Part shown: one piece after another, positions 43,919 to 58,675 of the stretch | Layout: every line of letters starts with the position of its first letter | Numbering within the stretch: the stretch's first letter is position 1 | Assembly (NCBI RefSeq): GCF_900101545.1 | Contig: NZ_FMZU01000005.1 | Span: 1-64,000, forward strand | DNA: 64,000 nucleotides | From: Variovorax sp. CF079 | GTDB taxonomy: Bacteria; Pseudomonadota; Gammaproteobacteria; Burkholderiales; Burkholderiaceae_C | Direction of reading: 5' to 3' | Translations under genes and position numbers: made by a program | The notes under the pieces: generated by a model | What the model was told of the DNA's origin: nothing | Seen by the model: only the letters and a program-made list of their open reading frames with translations | The model's database searches: none

Positions 43919-44653
43919 CTATCGGCGTCCGGCGTTCTTTGCCATATAGACCTGGTGCAGCGTAATCTTGCGCGCCTCGGCCTGGCTGGTCTCGATGTGG
44001 GCGCGCAGCAGCATCGCGGCCTGGTCGCCGCGGTTGGCGCGGATCGCCTTGAGAATCTTGCCGTGTTCCTCGTAAGTGGCGTCGATGCGCGGCTGCTTGG
44101 TGAAGTCGAGCCGGCGAATGATGCGGATGCGGTCGGTCACGTCGCGATGCACGCGCGCCATCTCCGCATTGCCCGCGGCCGCGACCAGCGCACAGTGAAA
44201 GGCCTCGTCCCATTGCGCGACCTGCACGCCGTCCGCGCTGCGCTGCGCCACCGGCACCAGCCAGATGTCGGCCAGCGCATCGAGCAGGCTGCGATCCACG
44301 CGCCGGTCGGTTTCGCAGAGCCGGTGCGCCGCGGTGGTCTCCAGCACCATGCGCAGGTCGTAGAGCTGTTCGAACTGGTCGAAGTCGAAGGGCAGCACGC
44401 GCCAGCCGCTCCTGAACAGCACCTCGACGAAGCCCTCCTGCTGCAGCCTGAAGAGCGCCTGGCGCACCGGCGTGCGCGAGACGCCGAGGCGCTCGCTGAT
44501 CTCGTTCTCGGTGAAGCGGTCGCCCGGCACCAGGCTGAACTCGGCCACGTCGCGCTTGAGCTGCGCGTAGACCTCGTCGGCGCGGGTGCGGAACGCGGCC
44601 GTGCCCTCGGCTGCAGGCTGGGAAGGAAGGGAGCGGGATCGAACGGTGGACAC
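43919..44653 (-). CDS. GntR-family (FadR/FCD-type) transcriptional regulator
   Basis: 244 residues. Winged helix-turn-helix at residues 25-95 (LVPGDRFTENEISERLGVSR, then TPVRQALFRLQQEGFVEVLF) and an all-helical FCD effector domain with the metal-site histidines (AFHCALVAAAGNAEMARVHR). It ends a long block of urea-derivative genes, nine bases after the first isochorismatase-fold gene, and is the likely local regulator, with an organic acid or amide as inducer. Its own operator was not identified. Confidence 0.92.
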   Translation of the reverse strand: MSTVRSRSLPSQPAAEGTAAFRTRADEVYAQLKRDVAEFSLVPGDRFTENEISERLGVSRTPVRQALFRLQQEGFVEVLFRSGWRVLPFDFDQFEQLYDLRMVLETTAAHRLCETDRRVDRSLLDALADIWLVPVAQRSADGVQVAQWDEAFHCALVAAAGNAEMARVHRDVTDRIRIIRRLDFTKQPRIDATYEEHGKILKAIRANRGDQAAMLLRAHIETSQAEARKITLHQVYMAKNAGRR

Positions 44654-44662
44654 GCAGGGATG

Positions 44663-45328
44663 TTAGTGGTTGCCGAGCGCACCGAGCAACGCGGTGCTCG
44701 GCGCGGTCCAGCCGACGATCGCACCCTGGGCGCGGATCATCTCGATGGCCGCCGTCTTGAAGGCGGGGAAGTAGCTCTCGGTGCAGTCTTCCAGCAGCAG
44801 GCAGTCGTAGCCGCGGTCGTTGGCCTCGCGCATGCTGGTCTGCACGCAGACTTCGGTGGTGACGCCCATGAAGATCAGTTTGCGGATGCTGCGCTGCTGC
44901 AGCATGGACTGCAGGCCGGTGGCATAGAAGGCGCCCTTGCCGGGCTTGTCGATCACGATCTCGCCATCGACGGGTGCGAGCGCATCGATGATCTGGTTAC
45001 CGGGTTCGCCGGCGACCAGGATGCGGCCCATGGGGCCCGTGTCGCCGATGCGGAGCACCGGGTTGCCGCGGTTGCGCTTGGCCGGCGGGCAGTCGGCGAG
45101 GTCGCGGCGGTGGGCTTCGCGCGTGTGAATGACGAGGCCGCCCTTTTTTCGCCATGCATGGAGGACCGACTGTGTCGCAGGGACGATGGCCTGGAGCAGC
45201 GAGACATCGTTGCCCAGGGTCTCGCCGAAGCCGCCGGGTTCGACGAAGTCGCGTTGCATGTCGATGATGACGAGGGCTGTCCTGTCCAGCTCGAACTCAT
45301 AGGCGAAGGGGTTGGCGTGTATCTGCAT
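44663..45328 (-). CDS. Isochorismatase-fold cysteine hydrolase
   Basis: 221 residues. Catalytic triad Asp23 in IIDMQRDF, Lys128 in [11 protein letters not shown] and Cys161 in [10 protein letters not shown], with the cis-peptide before the Cys. It shares the [18 protein letters not shown]-type core with the BiuH-like gene at 47281 but is clearly divergent, so a related urea or amide substrate is likely. A 345-base intergenic repeat region separates it from the ATPase gene, so it and the GntR gene may have their own promoter. Confidence 0.85.
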
Positions 45329-45341
45329 GGACTTGGCTTTA

Positions 45342-45656
45342 CTCCCTCCCCCTCCGGGGGAGGGTTGGGGTGGGGGCGCTGGGCCCTTGTTTGAGCGTTG
45401 CGCTTGGTTGGGCACCAGAGCCTGAGGCATTCGCTTCGCTCGGCCGCCTGAAGCGAGCACCGCAGGTTGCCCCGGAGCGAAGCGCAGGGGACACGCACAG
45501 TGGGGTCGCCTTTTCTTTGCTTACTTTCTTTTGGCGAAGCAAAAGAAAGTAAGTCGCCCGCCGGGGCGAGACCCGGCTCCAGGCCCCAGCAAGGAACAGC
45601 GACGGTTCAAAGGCCCAAGGGCCCCGACCCCAACCCTCCCCCAAAGGGGGAGGGAG
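45342..45656. repeat. Inverted-repeat-flanked intergenic island
   Basis: This 345-base gap holds no plausible gene. Its ends are inverted copies of a 36-base G/C element (45342-45377 against 45621-45656), each itself a CCCTCCCCC/GGGGGAGGG palindrome. In the middle lies a perfect 13-bp hairpin, CTTACTTTCTTTT/AAAAGAAAGTAAG with loop GGCGAAGC (45520-45553). The arrangement resembles a miniature inverted-repeat element or a complex REP unit; no transposase and no clear target duplication are seen. Confidence 0.6.
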
Positions 45657-45673
45657 CAAGAGCAAGACCGCAC

Positions 45674-47272
45674 TCATGCGTGATGCCCCCCACCCATATG
45701 CGCTCCCAACACATGCCGCTCCGCAGAAGCCGCGGAGGTTTCGAACACGATCCGTCCTTCGCTCATCACGACGATCCGGTCTGCCAGTTCCAGCAGCTCG
45801 TCGAGGTCTTCGCTGATGAGCAGCACGCCGCCGCCCTTCTGCCGCACCTGCACGATGCGGCCGTGGATCTCCCGCACGGCGGCGAAGTCCAGCCCGAACA
45901 CGGGATTGGCGGCAATCAGCACGTTGATGTCGCCGGCCAGCTCGCGGGCCAGTACGGCGCGCTGCACATTGCCGCCCGAGAGACTGCGGATCGGCGCGCC
46001 CTCGCCCTGGGTCTTCACACCGTACTCGGCAATCCACTCGCGCGCCCGGCTGCGCCAGGCCGGAAAATTCAACACGCCGCCGCGCGCCAGCGGCGGCTGG
46101 TCGAAGTCGCGCAGCGCCATGTTCTCCGCCACGCTGAGATCGCCGACGCAGGCGTTGCGCAAGGGCTCCTCGGGCAGGCTGCGCAGCTTCAGGCGCCGGT
46201 TCTCCTCGCGCCGTGCAGCGTATGGCTCGCCCATCACGGTCACGCGGCCTGCGAGCCGCGGGCGCTGGCCGACCAGCGCCTCGACCAGCTCGCGCTGGCC
46301 GTTGCCCGAGACGCCGGCCACGCCGAGGATCTCGCCCGCGCGCACGGCGAGGCTCAGGTCGTGCACGGCCAGCGTGCCGCGGTCGCCCTGCGCCTGCAGG
46401 CCCTCGACCTGCAAGGCGATGGGCGCGTCCGCCGCCGTCTCCTTCATCGCATGCAGCGCCCGGCCGACCGGCGCTGCGGTGTCGCTCTCGGGCGGCGGAG
46501 CCTCGCCTTCGCCCATCATCGCGGCGGCCAGCCGGCGGGGGTCGGTGTCGGCCACGCGGCAGTGATGCACGGCTTTCCCGCGCCGCAGCACCGTCACGCT
46601 GTCGGCATAGGCCATCACCTCGCGGAACTTGTGCGTGATGATGAGCACGGTGCACAGGCCGCTCTGCGCGAAATCGCGCACATGGCCCAGCACCTCGTCG
46701 GCCTCCTGCGGGGTCAGTACCGAGGTCGGCTCGTCGAGGATCAGGAGGCGCGGCTTCAGGTAGAGCTGCTTCAGGAGCTCCAGCTTCTGCTTCTCGCCGG
46801 CCGCGAGCTCGGAGGGCCGCCGGTCGAGGTCGAGGCTAAAGGGCGTGGTGGCCAGAAAGGCCTCGAGCTCTGCGCGCTTGCGTTTCCAGTCGATCAAGGC
46901 CGGCGTCTTGCCGCCGGCCAGCAACAGGTTCTCGGCCACCGTCATGCCGGGCGCCAGCGTGAAGTGCTGGTAGACCATGCCGATGCCGAGCGCGCGCGCC
47001 ACCACCGGGTTGGCGATCTCCTGCTCGCGCCCATCGATCAGGATGCTGCCCTCCTCTGCGCGCTGGTAGCCCGCCACGCACTTGACCAGCGTGCTCTTGC
47101 CGGCGCCGTTCTCGCCCAGCAGCGCATGCACCGTGCCGGGCTCGACCCGCATCGTGACGCTGTCCATCGCGGTGAAGCTGCCGAAGCGCTTGGTCAGCTG
47201 GTAGGTGTCGAGCGCGAGCGCGCCGGTGGCGGCCGGCAGCGCGCCGATGGGTTGAAGTGAGGCATCGGCCAT
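45674..47272 (-). CDS. BMP/nucleoside-type ABC importer ATPase (two nucleotide-binding domains)
   Basis: 532 residues with two ABC cassettes in one chain. First: Walker A GENGAGKST, signature LAAGEKQKLELLKQL and LLILDEPTSVLTPQE. Second: signature LSGGNVQRAVLARELA with a degenerate Walker A (VSGNGQREL), as is usual for MglA/NupO-type proteins. It powers uptake by the two permeases at 48996 and 49913, with the BMP binding protein. ATG 47272 has GAGG upstream; a GTG at 47284 overlapping the biuH stop is also possible. Confidence 0.9.
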   Translation of the reverse strand: MADASLQPIGALPAATGALALDTYQLTKRFGSFTAMDSVTMRVEPGTVHALLGENGAGKSTLVKCVAGYQRAEEGSILIDGREQEIANPVVARALGIGMVYQHFTLAPGMTVAENLLLAGGKTPALIDWKRKRAELEAFLATTPFSLDLDRRPSELAAGEKQKLELLKQLYLKPRLLILDEPTSVLTPQEADEVLGHVRDFAQSGLCTVLIITHKFREVMAYADSVTVLRRGKAVHHCRVADTDPRRLAAAMMGEGEAPPPESDTAAPVGRALHAMKETAADAPIALQVEGLQAQGDRGTLAVHDLSLAVRAGEILGVAGVSGNGQRELVEALVGQRPRLAGRVTVMGEPYAARREENRRLKLRSLPEEPLRNACVGDLSVAENMALRDFDQPPLARGGVLNFPAWRSRAREWIAEYGVKTQGEGAPIRSLSGGNVQRAVLARELAGDINVLIAANPVFGLDFAAVREIHGRIVQVRQKGGGVLLISEDLDELLELADRIVVMSEGRIVFETSAASAERHVLGAHMGGGHHA

Positions 47273-47280
47273 GCTCTGCC

Positions 47281-47979
47281 TCACATCGAAGCCAACGCAT
47301 CGAGCAGCGCGCCCGAATGCGCATGCGCGCCGAACACGCCGCCCTGCATCGTGATCATTTTCAAGGCTGCGAGATGGTTGCCGTGGTCAGTCGCGGCCGT
47401 GCAGTCCGACAGCAGCAGGCATTCGAAGCCGCGGTCGTTGGCGTCGCGCATCGTCGTGTGCACGCACACGTCGGTCGTGATGCCGGCCAGGATCAGGTTC
47501 TCGATGTCGCGCGTGCGCAGCACCAGCTCGAGATCGGTGGCGTAGAAGGAGCCCTTGCCGGGCTTGTCGATCACCACCTCGCCCTCGATCGGCGCAAGCG
47601 CGGGAATGATCTCCCAGCCCGGCTCGCCGCGCACCAGGATGCGGCCGCAGGGGCCGTCGTCGCCGATGCCCACGCCGCCGGCGCCGATCTGGCGCGAGCG
47701 CCAGCGCTTGTTGGCCGGCAGGTCGGCCAGGTCGCGGCGATGGCCCTCGCGCGTGTGGATGATGTGGAAGCCGAGTGGCCGCAGGCGCGCCAGCGTGCGC
47801 GCGATCGGCGCGATCGGCACCTGCACGAGCGACAGGTCGTAGCCCATCACGTCGACGTATCCGCCCTTGCCGCAGAAATCGGTCTGCATGTCGATCACGA
47901 TCAGCGCGGTGTTGTCGGGCCGCAGTGCGCCGTTGTAGGGCCAGCGATAGGGCTCGGCCGCGACGTAGCGTTCGTTCAT
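47281..47979 (-). CDS. biuH: Biuret amidohydrolase (BiuH-like)
   Basis: 232 residues. The sequence [20 protein letters not shown] followed by [20 protein letters not shown] closely fits the rhizobial BiuH cysteine hydrolases as I recall them. Triad: Asp30, Lys139 ([11 protein letters not shown]) and Cys172 ([10 protein letters not shown]). BiuH converts biuret to allophanate and ammonia in the cytoplasm. Allophanate hydrolase, the next step, is at 56942. The start overlaps the formamidase stop by four bases. Ureidoacrylate or other N-carbamoyl amide hydrolysis is an alternative. Confidence 0.82.
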
Positions 47980-48980
47980 AAGGCCTCCGGTCCCTTGTAG
48001 CTGCGCTCCGGCGGCTCGAAGCCGAAGCCGCTGCCGTCCTTCACTTTCACCTCATCGCTCCACGGCAGCTTGTAGCGGCCGGCCGCCATGTCCTGCATGT
48101 AGGTGTAGGGGCAGTCCTGTGCGCCGCCTTTCACCGCGACGTAGCCGCGGTGGTAGAGCTGGTAGATGTTGTTCTCCACGCCCCAGCCGGTGCGGGCCTC
48201 GCGCGCCAGGTCGGGCCGGAGCTCGGCGGTGATGATCTCGTCGGGCCGGCCGCCGCCCTCCACCAGCACGGTGCCGTCGAAGTTGCAGAACATGCCCTCG
48301 CCCATCGAGTCGAAGGTGCCGTCGCTGCCGCACATGCAGACGCTCGCGGTGTACGCGAGATTGCAAAAGGCGTTGGCCTGGTTGGTGATGCGCCAGGCGT
48401 GGCGGATCGGCGCCGTGTAGCCCGCTGTGCGGACGATGATCTCGGCGCCCTTGTACGCGGCCTCGCGCGCCATCTCAGGCAGCATGCCGTCGTGGCAGAT
48501 GATCAGGGCCAGCTTGCTGCCCTTGGGCCCGTCGCACACTGGCACGCCGATGTTGCCGGGCTCCCAGGGTTCGACCGGCACCCACGGATGCATCTTGCGG
48601 TAGTAGAGGCGCAGGGCGCCCTGGTCGTCGATGATCAGGCCGCTGTTGTAGGGATTGCCGCCGGGGTTGGCTTCCATGATCGAGAAGCAGCCCCAGATCC
48701 TGTTGTCGATGCAGGCCTTCTTGAAGGCCGCCACCTCGGGCCCGTCGAGCGAACACATGATCTCGGGCGCGGTGTCCATCGAAAGGCCGTGCAGCGCGTA
48801 TTCCGGGAACACCACCAGGTCCATGGTCCCCTGGTTGCGCCGCGCCTTGGCCACCAGCTCGCAGATGCGCTGCGTCTGCGCCGCGAGATCGGCCTTGGTC
48901 TTGACGACCGGCAGCTGCAGCTGCACCAGCCCGAGCACGACGCCGTTCTCCGATTTGTTGAGACCACCCAGACCGCTCAT
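47976..48980 (-). CDS. amiF: Formamidase
   Basis: 334 residues of the nitrilase superfamily. Catalytic Glu60 ([15 protein letters not shown]), Lys129 ([10 protein letters not shown]) and Cys162 ([14 protein letters not shown]). N-terminal [15 protein letters not shown] and the C-terminal [20 protein letters not shown] match AmiF rather than the aliphatic amidase AmiE. It hydrolyses formamide to formate and ammonia. Its place inside an importer operon implies that formamide, or a formyl-amide, arises from the imported compound. Confidence 0.92.
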
Positions 48981-48995
48981 CGCTTGGTTCCTTTC

Positions 48996-49916
48996 TCAGC
49001 GGGTCGACGACAGCTCGCCGGGACTGCCTGCCGCCACGCTGCCCGGCTTGCAGGTCAGCACCAGGATCACCAGCGTCAGCACATAGGGCACCGTGTTGAA
49101 GAGGTGGTAGCCCCAGCCCACGCCGATCGATTGCAGCGCCGGCCCGATGGCGCCGGCACCGCCGAAGAGCAGCGCCGCGCCGATGCAGCGCAGCGGACTC
49201 CAGCGAGCGAAGATGACCAGCGCCACTGCGATCAGCCCCTGCCCGCTCGAGATGCCCTCGTTCCAGCTGCCCGGATAGAAGAGCGTGAGCGAGGCTCCAC
49301 CGAGCCCGGCGATAAAGCCGCCCGCCGTGGTGGCCGCGATGCGCAGCCCCGCGACCGAATAGCCGAGCGCACGCGTTGCATTGGCCGAGTCGCCCGCCAT
49401 GCGCACCAGCAAGCCGATGCGCGTGCGCGCAAAAGCCCACCACAGCAGCAGCGCGAGCGCGATGCCGATCGGCACCAGAGCGTTGACCTGCAGCGCCGAG
49501 CGCACCACCGGGTTGTCGCTCCAGTCGCCGAGCGGAATCGCCGGCAGCTGCGGCGCCTGCGGCTGGATCAGCGGCTTGCCGAGGTAGAACGCGAGCCCGG
49601 TGCCGAGCAGCATCAGCGCAATGCCGGTCGCAACGTCGTTGACGCGGTCGAGCGAGCACAAGAGGCCATGCAGCAGCGCCAGCAGCGCACCGGCCGCGGC
49701 GCCGATCAGCACGCCGAGCCAGGCCGAGCCGGTGAGCCAGGCGCCGCCGAAGGAGGCCATGGCCGACAGCACGAGCACGCCTTCGAGGCCGAGGTTGATG
49801 CGGCCCGATTTCTCGGTCAGGCATTCGCCGAGGCTCACGAAGAGAAAAGGTGCGCCGACGCGCAAGGCGCCGCCGACGATGCCGGCCACAAGTGCGATCC
49901 ATTGGTCGGCGGTCAT
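48996..49916 (-). CDS. BMP/nucleoside-type ABC permease 2
   Basis: 306 residues with 8-9 hydrophobic helices. Motifs GECLTEKSGRINLGLEGVLV near residue 30 and FYPGSWNEGISSGQGLIAVA near 225 are typical of the NupQ/YufQ-like permeases of the branched-chain superfamily. It starts MTADQWIALVAG, overlapping the sister permease stop by four bases. It precedes amiF by 15 bases. Confidence 0.88.
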   Translation of the reverse strand: MTADQWIALVAGIVGGALRVGAPFLFVSLGECLTEKSGRINLGLEGVLVLSAMASFGGAWLTGSAWLGVLIGAAAGALLALLHGLLCSLDRVNDVATGIALMLLGTGLAFYLGKPLIQPQAPQLPAIPLGDWSDNPVVRSALQVNALVPIGIALALLLWWAFARTRIGLLVRMAGDSANATRALGYSVAGLRIAATTAGGFIAGLGGASLTLFYPGSWNEGISSGQGLIAVALVIFARWSPLRCIGAALLFGGAGAIGPALQSIGVGWGYHLFNTVPYVLTLVILVLTCKPGSVAAGSPGELSSTR

Positions 49917-50998
49917 ACCGGCTCCTTGCGCATCTGCGGCTCGGCGGGACGCGGCATGCGGTTCTTGAGCAGCGTCTTCCAGTCGACCATGCGCAGCCCC
50001 TCGCTCGCAAGAATCAGCACGAAGGCGATGCCCTGCAGCACCAGCACCGACGCATCGGGCAGGCCGAGCCGCCGCTGCAGCAGGCTGCCCGCGGCGCCGA
50101 AGCCGCCGAACAAGATCGCCACCGGAATCACGGCCACCGGGTTGTGGCGCGCAATGAAGGACACCAGGATGCCGGCATAGCCGTAGCCCGCGATCAGCGA
50201 GGCGTTGGCGTTGGTGTGAACCGCCGCGACTTCGACCGCGCCGGCCACGCCGGCACAGGCGCCGCCGAGGCCGCAAGCGGCGAGGATCAGCCGGTTCGCG
50301 GGCAGCCCGACCAGCTGCGCGGTGCGCGGATTGCCGCCCACCACCCGCACCGCAAAGCCCGAGGCCGTGGCGCGCAGCCACAGCCCCGAGGCCACGCAGG
50401 CCACGATGCCGATCGCGAGCCCCCAATGCACGTCCGAGCCGCCGATGCCGCCGATGGCCAGCCCCTCCGCGAGCGAGCGCGTGGCCGGCTTGTTGAGGCT
50501 GGCAGGATCGCGCAGCGCGCCCTCGACCCAATGCTTGAAAAGCCCGATGGCGACATAGGCCAAGAGCAGGCTGCTGATGGTTTCGTTGATGCCGCGGTAC
50601 TGGCGCAACCAGCCGGCCAGCGCGATCCACAGCGCACCGGCCAGCGCGCCGGCGAGGCACAGGGCTACGGTGCCGATCGCATTGCCCGGCAGCGGCAGCG
50701 CATAAGGCAAGGCCGCGCAGGCCAGGCCGCCCAGCACCAGCGCGCCCTCGCCGCCGATCACGACCAGGCCGGCGCGCGCGGGGATCGCGACGCACAGCGC
50801 GGTGAGCATCAGCGGCGCGGCGCGCTGCAAGGTGTTCTGCCACGAGAACCAGTCGCCGAAGGCGCCCTTGAAGAGGATGACCCAGACCTCCAGCGGACTC
50901 ACGCCGGCGAACCAGACGAAAACGCCGAACAGCAGCAGCGCCGCCGCGATGGCGAACACCGGGAGGGCGGCTTCTTTCAAGGCGTTGGGCATGATCAT
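49913..50998 (-). CDS. BMP/nucleoside-type ABC permease 1
   Basis: 361 residues, about ten helices, with ALCVAIPARAGLVVIGGEGA near residue 75 and RGINETISSLLLAYVAIGLF near 135, the NupP/YufP pattern. It pairs with the permease at 48996. A 108-base repeat-rich gap separates it from the binding-protein gene upstream. Confidence 0.88.
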   Translation of the reverse strand: MIMPNALKEAALPVFAIAAALLLFGVFVWFAGVSPLEVWVILFKGAFGDWFSWQNTLQRAAPLMLTALCVAIPARAGLVVIGGEGALVLGGLACAALPYALPLPGNAIGTVALCLAGALAGALWIALAGWLRQYRGINETISSLLLAYVAIGLFKHWVEGALRDPASLNKPATRSLAEGLAIGGIGGSDVHWGLAIGIVACVASGLWLRATASGFAVRVVGGNPRTAQLVGLPANRLILAACGLGGACAGVAGAVEVAAVHTNANASLIAGYGYAGILVSFIARHNPVAVIPVAILFGGFGAAGSLLQRRLGLPDASVLVLQGIAFVLILASEGLRMVDWKTLLKNRMPRPAEPQMRKEPV

Positions 50999-51004
50999 TG
51001 ATGC

Positions 51005-51105
51005 AGGTTGCCGGCCGCCGCCGGGCCGCCCCAGGGCGGCCGGGCCTCCCCCTCGGGGGGTGGAGTTACACGAGCGCAGCGAGTGGAAAGCCGGGGGGCA
51101 AACAT
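51005..51105. repeat. G/C palindromic repeat between binding protein and permease genes
   Basis: The 108-base gap is filled by palindromes: GGCCGCC/GGCGGCC-type stems, a CCCCCTC/GAGGGGG stem and a CACTCGCTGCGCTCGTG near-palindrome. It loosely resembles the element that contains the 37-base hairpin at 21631 and 43865 but lacks its core. It may give a stable 3' end to the binding-protein message, raising its dose over the permeases. Confidence 0.5.
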
Positions 51106-51106
51106 T

Positions 51107-52222
51107 TCAGCCGATCGAGCCGACGACGCCTTCCACGAGGTAGTTCATCTTCTCGAGCTCGAGGTCGGTCTGCTTGAGCGCCTTGCCGGCGGGGATGACG
51201 ACCACGCCCTTGTTGTCCTTCAACCCGCCCTGGAAGATGTCGAAAGTCCCGGCGATCATCTTGGCCTTGATCTCGTCGGCGTTCTTCTTGGCCGCGTCGC
51301 TCACCATCGGTCCGTAGGTCGAGGTTTTCACGTAGCCCTCCTTCAAGCCGCCGCGCAGGAAGTTGGGATGCGGCTTGCCGGCCTGCGCCGCTTCGATGAT
51401 GGTCTTGTAGGCCGTGAGCCAGTTCCACTCGGCGCCGGTGAGGTAGGCGTTGGGCGCCAGCTTGGCCTGGCTCGCGTGGTAGCCGCAGACCATCTTGCCG
51501 CGCTTGGCCGCGGTCTCGACCACCACCTTGGGGCCGTCGACGTGCATCGTGAAGACATCGCAGCCCTGGTCGGCCAGGCTGTTGGTGGCCTCGGCTTCCT
51601 TGACGGCCATCGACCAGTCGCCGGTGAAGATCACGCTGCAGGTGATGCCGGGCTTGACCGAGCGCGCGCCCATGGTGAAGGCATTGATGTTGCGCAGCAC
51701 CTGCGGAATGGGCTTGGCCGCGACGAAGGCGATCTTGTTGCTCTTGGTCATGTGGCCGGCGATCACGCCGTTCAAGTACTGGCACTCGTCGATGTAGCCG
51801 AAGAAGCTGCCGGCGTTCTTCGGATGCTTGCCTTCGGACCAGAGGCCGCCGCAGTGCGAGAAGCGCACGTCGGGGTTCTTCGGTGCCACGGCCAGGATGT
51901 GCGGATCGAAGTAGCCGAAGGAGGTGGGGAACAGCAGCTTGGCGCCGTCCTGCGCGATCATGCCGGTCATGGTCTTCTGCACGGCCGCGGTCTCGGGCAC
52001 GTTCTCTTCTTCCACCAGCTTGATGCCGGGCATCTTCTTGAGCTCGGCCGCGGCCTGCGCATGCGCCTGGTTGTAGCCGTAGTCGTCGCGCGGGCCGACG
52101 TAGATCACGCCCACGGTCAGCGGCTTCTGCGCGCTCGCCAGCGCGCTCCAGCCGCCGAGCGTGGTGGCGGAGGCAAGTGCGGCGAGGGACTTGAGGGAAT
52201 CGCGGCGGTTGAACTGGCTCAT
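51107..52222 (-). CDS. BMP-family ABC substrate-binding protein
   Basis: 371 residues. The N-terminus (MSQFNRRDSLKSLAALASAT) has a twin arginine and a hydrophobic stretch to about residue 31, so Tat or Sec export is plausible. The mature part KPLTVGVIYVGPRDDYGYNQ and GYIDECQYLNGVIAGHMTK belong to the Bmp/Med family, whose members bind purine nucleosides, purines or related heterocycles. That suggests a planar nitrogen-rich ligand for this importer. Confidence 0.88.
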   Translation of the reverse strand: MSQFNRRDSLKSLAALASATTLGGWSALASAQKPLTVGVIYVGPRDDYGYNQAHAQAAAELKKMPGIKLVEEENVPETAAVQKTMTGMIAQDGAKLLFPTSFGYFDPHILAVAPKNPDVRFSHCGGLWSEGKHPKNAGSFFGYIDECQYLNGVIAGHMTKSNKIAFVAAKPIPQVLRNINAFTMGARSVKPGITCSVIFTGDWSMAVKEAEATNSLADQGCDVFTMHVDGPKVVVETAAKRGKMVCGYHASQAKLAPNAYLTGAEWNWLTAYKTIIEAAQAGKPHPNFLRGGLKEGYVKTSTYGPMVSDAAKKNADEIKAKMIAGTFDIFQGGLKDNKGVVVIPAGKALKQTDLELEKMNYLVEGVVGSIG

Positions 52223-52261
52223 GGTTGCTCCTGGAAGTAGGTGGGGACTGGGAGGGATTGA

Positions 52262-52642
52262 TCAGGCAAGCAGGCTCACGTGCGCGGCCACCACGCGCCA
52301 GCCCTGGTCGGTGCGCATCCAGGTCTGGCTCTGGCGTCCCGTCTTCGCGCTGCCTTCGCGGCGGAACTCGATGTTGGCGGTGGCGAAGTCGCGGCCATAG
52401 GTGGTGATCGCGGTGCGCAGCACGTCGCGTGCCAGGCCCTGCGAGGGCCGCGCGGCGCGGAAGGCCTGGATTTCTTCGTAGCCGTAGAGGTTCTCGGTCG
52501 CGCCGTAGCGCAGCGTGTGCGGGCTGTTCCAGAACAGTTCGTCGAGCACCTCGACCTTGTTGTGGACCAGCGCGTCTTCGTAGCGCGCGAAGGCGGTCGT
52601 CACTTCGGCCAGCACGTCGGGGAGGTTGATCTCGGGCGTCAT
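52262..52642 (-). CDS. AtzH/HpxZ-like protein (DUF3225)
   Basis: 126 residues with an NTF2-like fold. It matches the AtzH/HpxZ family: [40 protein letters not shown] and [19 protein letters not shown]. Members occur with cyanuric-acid genes (AtzH, reported as a dicarboxyurea decarboxylase) and with oxalurate genes (HpxZ). It lies 11 bases after atzE. Which reaction applies here is not settled by sequence. Confidence 0.85.
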
Positions 52643-52653
52643 CGTGTCGTTCT

Positions 52654-54081
52654 TCACGAGAGGGTGGCGACGGGCGACTGCACCACGCCGGCCGATTCGA
52701 GCGCGGCGGCCACGCGCAGCACCAGGTCTTCGCGCCAGGGCGCGGCGATCACCTGTACGCCGATCGGCAGGCTCGCATGTGCGCCCCACACCGGCACGGC
52801 GCACACCGGCAGGCCGATGCACGAGATGGGCTGGGTCAGCACGCCCATGTTGGGCCGCACCTGCGCGCGCTGGCCGTTGAGCTCGAACCATTCGGCGCCG
52901 ATGGGCGTGGCGGCGCAGGGCGTGGCCGCGGCGAGCAGGATGTCGAAGCGCTCGAAGACCCGCGCTGCCTGCTCGGCATAGAGGCGCCGCACGCGCTGCG
53001 CGCGCGCCACCCAGGCGGCCGGCAGCAGCGCGCCGGCCAGGAAACGGTCGCGCGAGAGCGGCTCGAAGTCCTGCGCGCGCGTGCGCAGATCGCTCAGGTG
53101 CAGCGCTGCGCCTTCCGAGTTGGTGATCAGGAAAGCGGCGGCGCGCCCGGCCTCGACCATCGGCAGCTCGACGGTGCGGCTCGCGCCCAGTGCCTGGGCC
53201 ACGGCGTCGACCGCGGCGAGCGCCTCGGGCTGTGCGCGCTGCCGGAACCAGCCGCCGAGCACACCGACGCGCAGGCCCTGCACGCCGCGCGACAGCAGGT
53301 TGGCGACCGGCTCCACGGCGCGCTGGGCGCAGCCGGGGTCGCGCGGCGCCAGTCGTTCCGGTCCCTGCATGGCGTCGTAGGCCAGTGCCAGGTCGCGCAC
53401 CGAACGTGCAAAGGGCCCGAGGTGGTCCAGGCTCGAGACGAAGGGATAGCTGCCGGTGCGCGGCAGCCGGCCGAATGTGGGCTTGAGCCCGAACACGCCG
53501 TTGAGCGAAGCGGGCACGCGGATCGAGCCGTTGGTGTCGGAGCCGAGCGCGAGCGCCACCTGGCCGGCGGCCACCGCGGCGCCGGAGCCGCCAGAGGAGC
53601 CGCCGGCGATGCGGTCGAGGTCATGCGGGTTGTGGGTCGCGCCGACATGGCTGTTCTCGGTCGTGAAGCCGTAGGCGTACTCGTCCATGTTGAGCGCGCC
53701 GACCAGCACCGCGCCGGCGCTTTCGAGGCGGCGCACCAGCGTCGCGTCGCTGCGAGCGGGCATGCGGTCGCGCTCGATCTTCGAGCCGGCCAGTGTCGGC
53801 AGGCCGGCGACGTCGAACAGGTTCTTGACCGCGAACGGCACGCCGAGCAGCGGCAGCTCGCGCGTGCGCACGCCGTGCGCGGAGGCCAGCGAGGCATCGA
53901 CCTGGCCGGCGCGGCGCAGCGCGCGCTCGCGGACCACCTCGGTGAAGGCGTTGACGCGGCCATCGGTCGCGGCGATGCGGTCCAGGCTGGCCTGCGCCAG
54001 CGCGACCGCGCTCACCGCGCCCGAGCGCACCGCCTGCGCCATCACGGCGGCATCCTGCAGCAGCAGGGCGGCGGGTGTCAT
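52654..54081 (-). CDS. atzE: AtzE-like amidase (1-carboxybiuret hydrolase family)
   Basis: 475 residues of the amidase-signature family. Lys86 in FAVKNLFD, cis-Ser in GGSSGG (162/163) and nucleophile Ser186 in [11 protein letters not shown]. The family pattern and neighbours AtzG and AtzH make this AtzE or its oxalurate-pathway relative HpxY. AtzE removes ammonia from 1-carboxybiuret and needs AtzG for stability. Its start overlaps the atzG-like stop by four bases, fitting a two-subunit complex. Confidence 0.85.
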
Positions 54082-54284
54082 GCGCCGGGCTCCGGGGGTA
54101 CGACCGGCGAGAAGTGGACGGCCGGTTCTGCGTGCGGGTCCAGCGGCACGGCCTCCACCACCTCCGCGAATTCGCCCGCGAGCGCGAAGTAGCGCAGCAC
54201 GCCGGCGCGATGGTCGGGCCGCAGCTTCAGATCGAGCGCGGCCGCCGCGGCATCGACGTAAGCCTCGATCTGCCTGGGTGTCAT
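54078..54284 (-). CDS. atzG: AtzG-like small subunit (DUF4089)
   Basis: 68 residues. MTPRQIEAYVDAAAAALDLK followed by an extended Pro/Glu-rich C-terminus (LDPHAEPAVHFSPVVPPEPG) fits the AtzG/DUF4089 family, a GatC-like partner that wraps AtzE-type amidases. It overlaps atzE downstream and the ATPase gene upstream by four bases each. It is easily missed because a longer reading in the same frame runs through it. Confidence 0.82.
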   Translation of the reverse strand: MTPRQIEAYVDAAAAALDLKLRPDHRAGVLRYFALAGEFAEVVEAVPLDPHAEPAVHFSPVVPPEPGA

Positions 54285-55114
54285 CGTCTCACCTCGCGTT
54301 GGAAGATCTCGAGGCTCAGCTTCTTGGTGCTGATGAAACTCGGCGCGCTCAGCGTCTCCAGCGTGCGCGGGCGCGCATCGGCGTAGTCGAGGATCTCGGC
54401 CACCCGGGTCGGCCGCTTGGTGAGCAGCAGCACCTGGTCGGCCAGGTACACCGCCTCTTCCAGGTCGTGCGAGACCAGCAGCATCGTGGTGCCGGTTTGC
54501 ATGAAGACTTCCTGCAGTTTCTCGCGGATGAAGAGCGTCATCTCGAAGTCGAGCGCGGAGAAGGGCTCGTCGAGGAACAGCACCTCGGGATTCGGTGCCA
54601 GCGCGCGCATGATCGAGGCCGTCTGCTGCTGGCCGCCCGAGAGCTCGTACGGATAGCGGTGCAGATCGAACTTGACGTCGAAGGAAGCGACCAGTTCCGC
54701 CATGCGCCGGTCGACCTCGGCCTTGGAGCGGCCTTCGAGCTTGAGCGGGTAGGCGATGTTGTCGATGGTGCGCATCCAGGGGAACATCGCTTCGCGGTAG
54801 TTCTGGAACACGTAGCCGATCTTGGTGTCTTTCAGCGACTTGCCGTCGAACAGGATCTCGCCCGAGTCGATCGGAATCAGCCCCGCGATCATGTTGATCA
54901 GGGTCGACTTGCCGCAGCCGTTGGGCCCGAAGACCGAGACGATCCGGTTCTTCGGAATGTCGAGGTCGAAGTTCTCGTACAGCGGCCAGCCTGCGAAGTA
55001 CTTGGTGAGGCCGCGGATCGTGATGTGTGTGCCGGCCGGGCCGGGCGCGAAGACGGGCTTCGGCACATCGGCATACACCGGGCCGTTGATGACGGTGTCG
55101 GTGGCAGCTCTCAT
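54281..55114 (-). CDS. NitT/TauT-type ABC importer ATPase
   Basis: 277 residues. Walker A GPNGCGKST, a Q-loop in YVFQNYREAMFPW, signature LSGGQQQTASIMRAL, Walker B VLFLDEPFSALD and H-loop VSHD. The FQNYREAMFPWM region is typical of the nitrate/sulfonate/taurine group. There is no TOBE domain. It overlaps its permease gene upstream by four bases. Confidence 0.9.
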   Translation of the reverse strand: MRAATDTVINGPVYADVPKPVFAPGPAGTHITIRGLTKYFAGWPLYENFDLDIPKNRIVSVFGPNGCGKSTLINMIAGLIPIDSGEILFDGKSLKDTKIGYVFQNYREAMFPWMRTIDNIAYPLKLEGRSKAEVDRRMAELVASFDVKFDLHRYPYELSGGQQQTASIMRALAPNPEVLFLDEPFSALDFEMTLFIREKLQEVFMQTGTTMLLVSHDLEEAVYLADQVLLLTKRPTRVAEILDYADARPRTLETLSAPSFISTKKLSLEIFQREVRR

Positions 55115-55941
55115 CTTCCGCTCCAGTGCACGATGCGGCGTTCTGCGAGCAGGAAGAGGATGTTGAGCGCATAGCCCAGCGCGCCCGCCGCGAGGATCGC
55201 CGCGTACATGCTCTTGACGTTGAGCACCTGCTGCGCATCGATGATGCGGTGGCCCAGGCCGTTGTCGGAACCGATGAACATCTCGGCCACGATCACGATC
55301 ACCAACGCCATCGAGACTGCCGAGCGCAGGCCGACGAAAGAAGGCTGCAGGCTCTCCCACACCAGCACGTCCTTGAAGATCTGCCAGCGCGAGGCGCCCA
55401 TCACGCGCGCTGCCATCACGCGCTGCTTGCGCGCGTTGATCACGCCGTAGGCGCTGTTGAACACCACGATCAGCAGCGCGCCGAAGGCCGCGATGGCCAC
55501 CTTGTTGACGTCGGACACGCCGAAAATCAGGAGGAACAGCGGGATCAGCGCCGACGACGGCGTGGAGCGGAAGAAGTCGATCAGGAACTCGACGCTGCGA
55601 TAGGCCTTCTCGTTGCTGCCGAGCAAGACGCCCAGCGGCACGCCGATGGCCGCCGCGATCAGGAAGGCCTGCAGCGTGCGCCAGACCGTGACCGCGAAAT
55701 CCATCAGCAGCGGGCCGCCCGCCAGGCCGGTGACCAGCGCCGCGATGGTGTCGGCCGGCGTCGGCAGCAGGATCGGCTTGATGAAGCCGAGCCGCACCAC
55801 CAGGTCCCAGAGGATGAACAGCACGATGGGGCCGATGGCGGGTAGCCACTTGCTCCATGACGACTTCTTCGGCGCGGCAGCGGCCGCGGCGCCGGCGGTC
55901 CATGGCGTGGCAGCCGCGGGGCTGGTGCTCGTGGTGGCCAT
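55111..55941 (-). CDS. NitT/TauT-type ABC permease
   Basis: 276 residues. After an Ala/Pro-rich N-terminal tail of about 35 residues there are six helices, with the TauC/SsuC pattern FFRSTPSSALIPLFLLIFG and the EAA-like loop ARVMGASRWQIFKDVLVWES. It ends LLAERRIVHWSGR. It starts two bases after the binding-protein stop. Confidence 0.9.
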   Translation of the reverse strand: MATTSTSPAAATPWTAGAAAAAAPKKSSWSKWLPAIGPIVLFILWDLVVRLGFIKPILLPTPADTIAALVTGLAGGPLLMDFAVTVWRTLQAFLIAAAIGVPLGVLLGSNEKAYRSVEFLIDFFRSTPSSALIPLFLLIFGVSDVNKVAIAAFGALLIVVFNSAYGVINARKQRVMAARVMGASRWQIFKDVLVWESLQPSFVGLRSAVSMALVIVIVAEMFIGSDNGLGHRIIDAQQVLNVKSMYAAILAAGALGYALNILFLLAERRIVHWSGR

Positions 55942-55943
55942 GA

Positions 55944-56945
55944 TCAGCCCTTGTAGAGCAAGCCGTCCACCGGCACCTTCTTCTCGAAGATGCCTTTCTC
56001 GGTGAACAGGTCGTAGAACTTCTGGAAGTAGGCGACGTCGCTGGGCTTGAACTCGTTGTAGAGCATGTACGAAGCCAGCGGCACCTCGGCCGTGAGCGCA
56101 CCCTCGATCGCGGTGTAGCCCTTCATGTGTTGCCGCGCGTCCCCGGGCTTGGTGCGCACCAGCTCGACGCCGCGCGCGTAGGCGGCGATGAATTTCTTTG
56201 CCGCTTCGGGATTCTTCTTGATGAATTCGGTGGTCAGGCTGGCGGCGCCGCCATGCCACGGCGCCATCGGGTCGCCGAGGATGTACTTGGCGACAACGCC
56301 GGCCTCGATCACGCGCGTGGTGCCGTTCATGCGGCCGACCGTGCCCGTGGGCTCCAGTGTGTAGCAGGCATCGACTTGGCCTGCGACCAGCGATGCGACG
56401 TGCTGGCCGATCGGCAGTTCGGAGACCATCGCGCCGGTGGCGCCGGCGCGCTCCAGCATCGTCTTGCACAAGGTCATGTTCTGGATGCCGGGACCGGAGG
56501 CGACCTTCTTGCCCTTGAGCTCGGCCATGGTCTTGATCGGGCTGTCCTTGGCGACGATGAACTCGTCGAGCACGAACTTGGCGTTGCTCGGGTTGGTGCA
56601 GAAGATCTTGAACAGGCCGGGCTGCGCGATCTCGCCGATGGCGAGGTTGGCCGAGCCGGTGCCGTTGGAGCTGCCGTCGGAGCGGCCGGAGAGCATCGCT
56701 TCCATCACCTGCTGCGCGCCGGCGAACTTGAGCGGCTCGACCTCGAGGCCGGCTTCCTTGAAGTAGCCGCGATCGATGGCCGCGAAGAAGGGCAGCCCCG
56801 CCGCCACCGGCCAATAGCCGATGCGGATCTTCGGCGCGGCCTGGGCCAGCACCAGCGAGGGCGCGGCGAGCGCGGCGATGCCCGCGGCGCCGGCTTGCAG
56901 CACACGTCGTCGCGACGCGGCGGGTATCGAGTTGACGATGCTCAT
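55944..56945 (-). CDS. NitT/TauT-type ABC substrate-binding protein
   Basis: 333 residues. The signal region (ASRRRVLQAGAAGIAALAAP) has adjacent arginines, compatible with Tat export. The mature part PKIRIGYWPVAAGLPFFAAI followed by DRGYFKEAGLEVEPLKFAGA is the SsuA/TauA (NMT1-like) fold. Relatives bind sulfonates, nitrate, hydroxymethylpyrimidine or urea-like compounds. The start overlaps the atzF stop by four bases, tying this importer to allophanate metabolism. Confidence 0.88.
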   Translation of the reverse strand: MSIVNSIPAASRRRVLQAGAAGIAALAAPSLVLAQAAPKIRIGYWPVAAGLPFFAAIDRGYFKEAGLEVEPLKFAGAQQVMEAMLSGRSDGSSNGTGSANLAIGEIAQPGLFKIFCTNPSNAKFVLDEFIVAKDSPIKTMAELKGKKVASGPGIQNMTLCKTMLERAGATGAMVSELPIGQHVASLVAGQVDACYTLEPTGTVGRMNGTTRVIEAGVVAKYILGDPMAPWHGGAASLTTEFIKKNPEAAKKFIAAYARGVELVRTKPGDARQHMKGYTAIEGALTAEVPLASYMLYNEFKPSDVAYFQKFYDLFTEKGIFEKKVPVDGLLYKG

Positions 56946-58675
56946 GGAACACTCCTTGTCGTTGCCTTGCGGGACTCGATGTAGCGGCGCCAGCCGCCCA
57001 GATGCGTGATGTCTTCGGCGCCTTCGAGCGCCAGCCCTTCGCAGAGAAAGCCTTGCACGCTGCTGCCGTCGGCCAGCGCCAGGGTGCCGATGCCGAGCGG
57101 CGCCGGAATCAGCGACACGAAGGAGCCGTAGTGCGCGAGCGGCATCTGCCACACCTCGACCGCGATCGCCGCACCTTTCGTGCCCGGCACGCGCACCAGT
57201 CCGGGCTTGGGCGGCACCGTGCCGGGCAAGGCGTAGAGGCGGTAGTGCGGCGCGGTCGCCGTCTGCGCCACGAGCGTGGCGCCGCGCTCCGTCAGCTGGC
57301 CGTTCAGCGGCATGCCCGACAGGTGTGCGCCGACCACCGCGAGCCTGACCATAGGCTCGGCCGCGATCAGCGGCAGCGCCTCGGGCGCGGGCAGCGGTGC
57401 ACCGGTCGCGCCCAGCGGCACGCCGGTGGCGTGGTGGAAGCGCTGGCCCAGTTCGGCCAGCTGGAAGTCGCTGCCCGAGCGTCCGATCAGTGTGATGCCG
57501 AAGGGCAGGCCGTCCTCGCGCAGGCTGCTCGGCACCGAGATCGCCGCATAGTCGAGCAAGTTCACGAAGTTGGTGTATTCACCCAGGTTGCGGTTGAGCG
57601 CCACCGGCGCGGCCTGCATCGCGTCGGTCGTGTAGTGCGCGGGCGCGGTGGGCACCAGCAGCACGTCGATGTCGCGCCACATCGCGGCCGCGCGCTGGCC
57701 GAGTGCGTGCAGCTTCGCGCGCGCATCGACGAAGTCGGCCGCGCTGTAGCGCCGGCCCGCGGCCAGGATGCCGCGCACCGGCTCGATCACTTCGCTTTCA
57801 TGCGCGTCGAAGAAGCCGCGGACGGCGGCATAGCGCTCGGCGACCAGCGCGCTGTCGTAGAGCAGCGCGGCGGCTTCGGCCAGCGGCGCGTAGTCGATCG
57901 CCACCGGCGTGCCGCCCAGGGCCTGCATCTGCGCGACGGCGCGTTCGAAGGCGACCGCCGACAGCGCATCGCCGAAGAAGCGCGGCGCCGAGGGCAGGCC
58001 GAAGCGGAAGCCCGCGGGCAAGGGTTCGGCGGCGAGCTTCAACTCGCGCGAATAGGGATCTTCGGCATCGAAGCCCATCGCCGCCTGCAGCACGCGCGCG
58101 GCCAGGCCCACGGTCCTTGCGAAGATCGACACGCAATCGACGCTCTGCGCCGCCGGTACCACACCGCGCGCGCTGATCAGGCCGCGCGAGGGCTTGATGC
58201 CGACGATGTTGTTGAGCCCGGCCGGCACCCGGCCCGAGCCCGCGGTGTCGGTGCCCAGGGCGAAGTCGACCTGGCCGGTGGCGACCACGTAGGCCGAGCC
58301 GGAGCTCGAGCCGCCCGACACGTAGCGCGCATCGAAGCTGTTGGGCACGGCGCCATAGGGCGAACGGGTGCCGTTCAGGCCGCAGGCGAACTGGTCGAGA
58401 TTGGTCTTGCCGGCGAGGCTTGCACCGGCATCGAGCAGCCGCTGCACCACATGCGCGTGGGTGGCCGGCGTATAGGCGAAGGCAGGACAGGCCGCCGTGG
58501 TCGGCATGCCGGCAGCGTCGATGTTGTCCTTGGCGGCGAAGCTGAGGCCGGTGAGCGGCCCCTCGGCCGCGCCGGACAACGGCGGGTCGAGCCGCGCGAT
58601 CCATGCCTGCGCGGCCCCTCCGTTCACTTGGTCTGACACCTCGCCGCGAAGCGAGGCCTTTTCATGCACCATCAT
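56942..58675 (-). CDS. atzF: Allophanate hydrolase
   Basis: 577 residues. The amidase-signature domain covers residues 1-450: Lys49 (SFAAKDNIDAAGMPTT), Ser in GGSSSGS (123-125) and nucleophile Ser147 in GTDTAGSGRVP. The C-terminal domain of about 115 residues (VGAHLSGMPLNGQLTERGAT to YIESR) is the one found in AtzF and TrzF that completes decarboxylation. It splits allophanate into ammonia and CO2. ATG 58675 has AGGA six bases upstream. First gene of the urea-derivative block. Confidence 0.93.
   Translation of the reverse strand: MMVHEKASLRGEVSDQVNGGAAQAWIARLDPPLSGAAEGPLTGLSFAAKDNIDAAGMPTTAACPAFAYTPATHAHVVQRLLDAGASLAGKTNLDQFACGLNGTRSPYGAVPNSFDARYVSGGSSSGSAYVVATGQVDFALGTDTAGSGRVPAGLNNIVGIKPSRGLISARGVVPAAQSVDCVSIFARTVGLAARVLQAAMGFDAEDPYSRELKLAAEPLPAGFRFGLPSAPRFFGDALSAVAFERAVAQMQALGGTPVAIDYAPLAEAAALLYDSALVAERYAAVRGFFDAHESEVIEPVRGILAAGRRYSAADFVDARAKLHALGQRAAAMWRDIDVLLVPTAPAHYTTDAMQAAPVALNRNLGEYTNFVNLLDYAAISVPSSLREDGLPFGITLIGRSGSDFQLAELGQRFHHATGVPLGATGAPLPAPEALPLIAAEPMVRLAVVGAHLSGMPLNGQLTERGATLVAQTATAPHYRLYALPGTVPPKPGLVRVPGTKGAAIAVEVWQMPLAHYGSFVSLIPAPLGIGTLALADGSSVQGFLCEGLALEGAEDITHLGGWRRYIESRKATTRSVP

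Follow-up and report, generated by a model that had tools for sequence, protein, structure and literature searches.

A predicted operon of Variovorax sp. CF079 for triuret and its breakdown products, with two putative branches through carboxybiuret

Gene block and its two cysteine hydrolases

The window analysed in this study comprises the first 64,000 nucleotides of contig NZ_FMZU01000005.1 of Variovorax sp. CF079, whose genome assembly (6.85 Mb, 71 contigs) is 99.98% complete. It contains a block of 15 genes, all on the minus strand and spanning positions 43919-58675, from the gene of a GntR-type regulator (43919) to that of an allophanate hydrolase (58675), which is the first gene of the block (Table 1). 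An earlier reading of the sequence alone had placed this one-directional block and its many four-base overlaps correctly, and such overlaps were counted at 7 of the 14 gene junctions. Two junctions are loose, with 345 bases before trtA and 108 bases before the gene of the first BMP-type permease, and G+C-rich repeat-like sequence was found in both of the widest spacers (45329-45673 and 51008-51100); the trtA spacer has a median of 48 bases in 95 relatives. Therefore, a single transcript for the block is only putative.

The hydrolase names and the two importers proposed in the sequence-only reading were backed by NCBIfam and Pfam scans, which jointly covered all 15 proteins. AtzE, the AtzH/HpxZ-like protein, AmiF and a single BiuH exceeded their NCBIfam cut-offs, and the AtzG-like protein, the allophanate hydrolase C-terminal domain, the BMP-type and NMT1/NitT-type binding proteins and the GntR/FCD regulator exceeded those of Pfam. 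The gene order was found again in relatives, indicating that these genes do not lie together by chance. The order BMP permeases-(AmiF)-BiuH-ATPase-TrtA recurs on alpha-, beta- and gammaproteobacterial plasmids, and the BMP ATPase gene precedes trtA in 95 of the 135 loci over which gene order was counted. The window trtA product is 95% identical to its counterpart in Variovorax paradoxus ISL-79.

The block encodes two distinct cysteine hydrolases of the isochorismatase type. The protein at 47281-47979 matches BiuH of Rhizobium leguminosarum best and lies above the BiuH cut-off, and the protein at 44663-45328 matches TrtA of Herbaspirillum best and lies under that cut-off. The catalytic residues and the positions separating TrtA from BiuH are named in PMC7948467. 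We compared 13 catalytic and diagnostic sites, for which the TrtA letters are the catalytic Asp24, Lys129 and Cys162, then Phe35, Asn41, Ala134, Glu160, Tyr187, Gln202 and Ile205, and additionally Phe29, Glu72 and Lys132. The first protein has the BiuH letter at 13 of 13 sites and the second the TrtA letter at 13 of 13, which rules out the gene at 44663-45328 as a second BiuH. Exactly one of the two patterns was present in 217 of 235 aligned rows, a count that takes in both references and both window proteins; 16 others were one site off a pattern, L168 was misaligned, and L164 was not TrtA. Judged by its nearest structure and residue pattern, the protein at 44663-45328 is the triuret hydrolase TrtA. 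The presence of TrtA makes triuret, a nitrogen-rich compound that arises as a by-product in urea fertiliser and when uric acid is oxidised, the most likely entry substrate of the block, and AtzF is encoded in the same cluster as TrtA and BiuH. The earlier view of a urea-derivative operon with two importers, handling carboxybiuret, biuret and allophanate, was thus retained, and its statement that the primary substrate is unknown gives way to triuret as the most likely candidate.

TrtA-type genes were also seen in other arrangements. An order-level set was assembled of 50 loci from 58 genomes with a match, the weakest matches being left out; L164 turned out not to be TrtA. In 20 of the 50, L143, L145 and L147 among them, trtA-type genes have the full TrtA residue pattern with no BiuH, AtzE, AtzH or AmiF nearby. 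Two TrtA-type genes and one BiuH gene share a cluster in the L023 region of genomes G023 and G153 (L178, L176). Escherichia plasmids carry TrtA-type relatives as well (about 60% identical over nearly the full length; 78 of 284 plasmid records), and of the 12 E. coli plasmid rows inspected, nine name birds or poultry as the source, two name humans, and one names none. Uric acid, a possible source of triuret, is abundant in bird droppings.

Table 1. Genes and sites of the block in the window, in their order along the minus strand
Feature	Positions	Strand	Basis
CTTGTNNACAAG, likely GntR operator, 12 bases before the atzF start codon	58688..58699		exact match in window
atzF, allophanate hydrolase with C-terminal domain, 577 amino acids (aa), first gene	56942..58675	-	PF01425 278 bits, PF21986 178 bits; best solved relative allophanate hydrolase 4gyr, E 1.5e-159
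NitT/TauT-type binding protein, 333 aa	55944..56945	-	PF09084 73.7 bits; solved relatives weak
NitT-type permease, 276 aa	55111..55941	-	PF00528
NitT-type ATPase, 277 aa	54281..55114	-	PF00005
atzG-like subunit, 68 aa	54078..54284	-	PF13318 48.7 bits (cut-off 24)
atzE, 1-carboxybiuret hydrolase family, 475 aa	52654..54081	-	TIGR02715 677.7 bits (cut-off 425.75); best solved relative AtzE 6c62, E 5.8e-166; tree
atzH-like, HpxZ/DUF3225 family, 126 aa	52262..52642	-	PF11533 206.8 bits; best solved relative AtzH 6bjt, E 6.7e-54; Tyr22 and Arg46 kept
BMP-type binding protein, AtzT-like fold family, altered pocket, 371 aa	51107..52222	-	PF02608 141.7 bits; best solved relative AtzT 6pi5, E 4.1e-61; pocket letters
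BMP-type permease 1, 361 aa	49913..50998	-	NF047929 160 bits (under cut-off) and position
BMP-type permease 2, 306 aa	48996..49916	-	NF047928 144 bits (under cut-off) and position
amiF, formamidase, 334 aa	47976..48980	-	NF009803 576.2 bits (cut-off 406); 5g3o, E 1.5e-117; Glu60, Lys133 and Cys166 in 50/50 rows
biuH, biuret hydrolase, 232 aa	47281..47979	-	6azo, E 2.7e-119; NF050097 409.9 bits (cut-off 370); BiuH letters at 13/13 sites
BMP-type ATPase, two ATP-binding domains, 536 aa	45674..47284	-	PF00005 in 2 stretches
345-base spacer, repeat-like, BMP ATPase gene to trtA	45329..45673		median 48 in 95 relatives
trtA, triuret hydrolase, 221 aa	44663..45328	-	6xix TrtA, E 3.6e-89; NF050097 (BiuH) 262 bits, below 370; TrtA letters at 13/13 sites
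GntR/FCD-family regulator, 244 aa	43919..44653	-	PF00392 62.8 bits, PF07729 72 bits

Distribution of BiuH, AtzE and AtzH in relatives

The TrtA product 1-carboxybiuret is reported to break down to biuret, half of it within about 20 minutes (PMC7948467), and in Pseudomonas sp. ADP, AtzEG acts on carboxybiuret and AtzH was proposed to hand the product to AtzF (PMC6219798). BiuH and AtzE may thus mark two branches, and their distribution was followed in named loci, which are the best 80 of 188 relatives and lean to Variovorax. For 61 of these 80, 9 kb or more upstream of trtA could be viewed; among them, both BiuH and AtzE were present in 40, BiuH only in 16, AtzE only in 5, and neither in none.

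Whole-genome searches were performed for the missing partner. For the BiuH-less loci L039, L055, L070, L076, L078 and L079, trtA was the only BiuH match in the genome at E 1e-40 or better, and the same search also found BiuH in five of five other genomes. AtzE at E 1e-60 was not found in 15 of 16 AtzE-less Variovorax-type genomes, and the 16th had only a 39% identical amidase. By these searches, the missing branch has not just moved to another place in the genome. Five of the six BiuH-less genomes had AtzF above its cut-off; in four, it lay on the trtA contig, about 12 kb upstream of that gene. In the sixth, G772, no AtzF was found. As for the next recognised gene within 1.5 kb after trtA, it was atzE in 11 and atzH in 7 of the 135 loci. 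At the BiuH-less locus L039 (1141-3185, 3335-8000), the BMP importer differs, and genes for a RutB-like cysteine hydrolase and an amidase lie on the opposite strand; similar neighbours occur in L055, L076, L078 and L079.

Concerning AtzH, the gene was retained without atzG and atzE in 16 named loci, and in L022 this orphan atzH starts where the NitT ATPase gene ends. None of the 16 orphan genes contains an internal stop, and their median ratio of non-synonymous to synonymous substitution (dN/dS) is 0.26, versus 0.33 in 36 AtzH accompanied by AtzE. Tyr22 and Arg46, both needed in ADP AtzH, were kept in 91 of 91 AtzH rows. Conversely, L018, L028, L035 and L067 kept atzG and atzE with no detectable atzH; together, the two kinds of locus indicate that AtzH and AtzEG are separable. 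In Ideonella and Pseudomonas luteola, an AtzH-like gene stands at or near the place after trtA that is held by a small cupin gene in Rhizobium and Agrobacterium. Its persistence without AtzEG and its occurrence near the cupin's place suggest that AtzH can act directly on carboxybiuret, making it a candidate in this block for the role of TrtB, the carboxybiuret decarboxylase. If TrtB proves to be AtzH-like, an action of AtzH on carboxybiuret would be partly known already.

Regarding the history of AtzE, the window protein falls in a Variovorax-Rhodoferax-Xenophilus clade (support 100/99), and TrtA-linked AtzE are spread over several parts of the tree. Pseudomonas ADP AtzE was placed among TrtA-linked Comamonadaceae AtzE (98/86); however, its placement as a sister outside that group was not rejected by the approximately unbiased (AU) test (p 0.27), and ADP AtzF (51% identity) does not stand out as close to the AtzFs of the operons. 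These two results weaken a firm nesting, and ADP AtzE is best described as lying within or beside the TrtA-linked Comamonadaceae group. Outside the betaproteobacteria, L129 (Paroceanicella profunda plasmid pD4M1A) carries genes for a cysteine hydrolase, an AtzG-like protein and AtzE with a divergent AtzH-like gene.

Importers, formamidase and regulator

The best solved relative of the BMP binding protein is AtzT of the atrazine plasmid (40% identical), which binds guanine (110 nM) and 2-hydroxyatrazine (2.2 µM) between Tyr45 and Trp194 (PMC6834077). With an offset of 5 between the chain index and the published numbering, which fits nine of nine letters checked, the pocket letters Tyr45, Ser97, Asn169 and Trp194 are kept in the window protein, so that the Tyr45/Trp194 sandwich is intact. 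At the three other positions, 87 of 88 BMP rows have Gln for Glu165, His for Asn218 and Asp for Asn220, and the remaining row is a gap; the window protein thus does not have the full guanine/hydroxyatrazine pocket of AtzT. Such a uniform pocket, apparently for a flat ligand other than guanine, may fit triuret or biuret. The NitT binding protein had weak relatives only among the solved structures, and none suggested a ligand.

AmiF scored above the formamidase equivalog cut-off, and Glu60, Lys133 and Cys166, which we take to be the formamidase triad, were present in 50 of 50 rows. In 49 of 49 AmiF-bearing loci, its gene was flanked by that of the second BMP permease and biuH. In 43 other loci, biuH directly follows the BMP permease, and AmiF is absent from 43 of the 92 biuH-bearing loci. 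Since the gene has a fixed slot but is often absent, AmiF does not define the substrate of the block, and the formamidase can be discarded as a substrate clue. The idea in the sequence-only reading that it points to a formamide-yielding substrate is therefore abandoned. Its presence in the importer operon, considered unusual in that reading, also recurs, as the same slot holds a formamidase in Rhizobium leguminosarum 31B (with AtzD adjoining) and Pseudomonas luteola. A literature search pairing formamidase with biuret found nothing related, and any role of AmiF here would be conjectural.

For the regulator, CTTGTNNACAAG matches the window exactly just upstream of atzF. A usable operon head was available in 30 of the 135 loci, and the site occurred with at most one mismatch at 12 of these 30 heads, versus 1.4% of 1500 control stretches taken from the same loci, heads not excluded. 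The site is a likely GntR operator, and its pairing with the GntR protein of the block is presumed.

Proposed pathway, competing explanations and meaning

Based on this evidence, the block is probably a two-branch operon by which triuret and its breakdown products are scavenged for nitrogen; the enzyme activities that follow are those predicted for this organism. Planar ureides would be imported by the BMP importer with its AtzT-like binding protein, and perhaps by the NitT importer too, and TrtA would convert triuret to 1-carboxybiuret, releasing one ammonia. In one branch, AtzEG would strip the next ammonia from carboxybiuret to give 1,3-dicarboxyurea, from which AtzH would form allophanate. 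In the other, carboxybiuret would lose CO2, spontaneously or aided by AtzH, and the resulting biuret would be converted to allophanate by BiuH. AtzF would catalyze the last step, common to both branches, with the nitrogen ending as ammonia, and with both branches in place neither unstable carboxybiuret nor leaked biuret would be a dead end. The GntR protein probably represses the operon at CTTGTACACAAG until a ureide is present.

Several observations weigh against this proposal. At 20 of the 50 order-level loci, none of BiuH, AtzE, AtzH, AmiF, AtzD or the cupin was in view, showing that TrtA also occurs in other settings; no good CTTGTNNACAAG-like site was found at 18 of the 30 operon heads; and AmiF has no step in the scheme. 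Furthermore, NCBIfam names the AtzH-like protein, over the cut-off, 'oxalurate catabolism protein HpxZ'; the window AtzE, in its own clade, is just slightly nearer to ADP AtzE (58% identical) than to Klebsiella HpxY (55%, the only HpxY compared); and one group of TrtA-linked AtzE lies beside Klebsiella HpxY in the tree with moderate support. The last three points would fit two parallel pathways, one in which TrtA-BiuH-AtzF degrade triuret and biuret and another in which AtzG-AtzE-AtzH serve as HpxX-HpxY-HpxZ and use oxalurate. Triuret and oxalurate both arise when uric acid or guanine is oxidised, so that one importer set could serve both, and oxalurate genes are reported beside trtA-biuH in comammox bacteria (PMC12625717). 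However, HpxW, an oxalurate-pathway partner already noted as missing, had no match as a gamma-glutamyltransferase among the 15 block proteins (no genome-wide search for HpxW was made); the BiuH-less loci would leave carboxybiuret without an enzyme; and ADP AtzE, which was tested on carboxybiuret, groups in or beside the TrtA-linked AtzE. We regard such parallel pathways as unlikely. A class-wide search with Klebsiella HpxY was positive in 6 of 369 genomes, one of them the source genome of the window, and gave no further Enterobacterales-type set to compare with.

The main substrate might instead be a ring compound (cyanuric acid, 5-azauracil or some other ring of the triazine or purine type) that is opened by an enzyme encoded elsewhere in the genome, with triuret secondary. 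The follow-up proposed in the sequence-only reading, to see which ring-opening enzyme travels with the gene order, pointed to AtzD, which lies inside or beside the same order in L120, L060, L032, L045 and genome G171, a minority of the loci viewed; the AtzT ligands guanine and 2-hydroxyatrazine are themselves rings. In the source genome, AtzD (PF09663) was not found, as had been claimed for the block; the same search was positive in six of six control genomes or records, picked because AtzD had already been seen in them, and this rules out an AtzD encoded elsewhere in the genome. Moreover, TrtA is itself an entry enzyme, AtzT binds cyanuric acid weakly (dissociation constant 340 µM; PMC6834077), and three polar guanine contacts are changed here, so a ring as the main substrate appears very improbable. 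There is a further possibility of a broad scavenging of oxidised-base fragments, in which triuret would stem from urate, and biuret and formamide from pyrimidine oxidation; AmiF would then have a use. Biuret and formamide can arise from oxidised cytosine or thymine, although our literature search found no report of this. The fixed slot of AmiF in 49 loci, its score above the formamidase cut-off and the reported formation of cyanuric acid, oxaluric acid and urea in guanine oxidation (PMC10607741) agree with this explanation, but the enzyme is absent from 43 of the 92 biuH-bearing loci. Overall, the broad scavenging of such fragments is also improbable, and a two-branch triuret operon is preferred.

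The block can be compared with several known systems. The triuret pathway TrtA-(TrtB)-BiuH-AtzF of Herbaspirillum sp. BH-1 and Rhizobium leguminosarum (PMC7948467) and the ammonia oxidiser contigs with trtA-biuH-trtB-atzF-bmpA-nupABC (PMC12625717) have the combination of TrtA, BiuH, AtzF and a BMP-type importer in common with it; both the pathway and this importer are thus already published. The order BMP importer-BiuH-ATPase-TrtA is also that of the Rhizobium, Agrobacterium, Ideonella and Pseudomonas luteola plasmids. Unlike these triuret clusters, the block adds AtzG-AtzE-AtzH, the NitT importer and AmiF and has no cupin gene after trtA. With the atzDGEHF genes and AtzT importer of Pseudomonas sp. 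ADP it shares the AtzG-AtzE-AtzH order, AtzF and a nearby BMP-type binding protein; however, it lacks AtzD, has TrtA, BiuH, AmiF and NitT genes, carries GntR in place of AtzR, and its AtzF is not particularly close (51%). In the Klebsiella pneumoniae oxalurate cluster (L125), HpxX, HpxY and HpxZ are homologous to AtzG, AtzE and AtzH, whereas the block is without HpxW, HpxU and allantoin-type genes and has AtzF and TrtA instead. A cyanuric-acid-type operon was also seen on the 603 kb Pseudomonas putida plasmid pZXPA-20-602k (L126), with a ring-opening amidohydrolase, atzF, DUF4089 (AtzG-like), atzE, hpxZ, a solute carrier 23 permease and an OprD porin.

The block also resembles the uncharacterised atzF-(ABC)-atzG-atzE-atzH-ABC-amidase clusters of Variovorax, Rhodoferax, Leptothrix and Methylibium (ABC, ATP-binding cassette), noted in 2018 only as nitrogen-compound clusters, with no substrate given (PMC6219798). 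The downstream hydrolases can now be named AmiF, BiuH and TrtA, and thereby a substrate is proposed for the AtzG-AtzE-AtzH clusters of Variovorax and its relatives. Clusters of TrtA, BiuH, AtzF and a BMP importer are known, but our search of a limited literature collection found no report of TrtA joined with AtzEG and AtzH in one operon, and the two-branch gene combination looks new.

These results also suggest a possible origin of the atrazine-pathway AtzG-AtzE-AtzH genes. We propose, tentatively and with more doubt than confidence, that their older home was in Comamonadaceae TrtA operons, from which they were later taken over by the ADP cyanuric acid operon, and that AtzH is a general decarboxylase of N-carboxy-ureides, carboxybiuret included, doing the TrtB step where AtzEG is missing. 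Loci that naturally hold either branch alone or the two together offer a ready test of why two routes through unstable carboxybiuret are kept and of what AtzH does without AtzEG. As triuret is spread on farmland with fertiliser, in which it is an impurity, and may also arise from uric acid (PMC7948467), this probable operon bears on the fate of triuret in soil.

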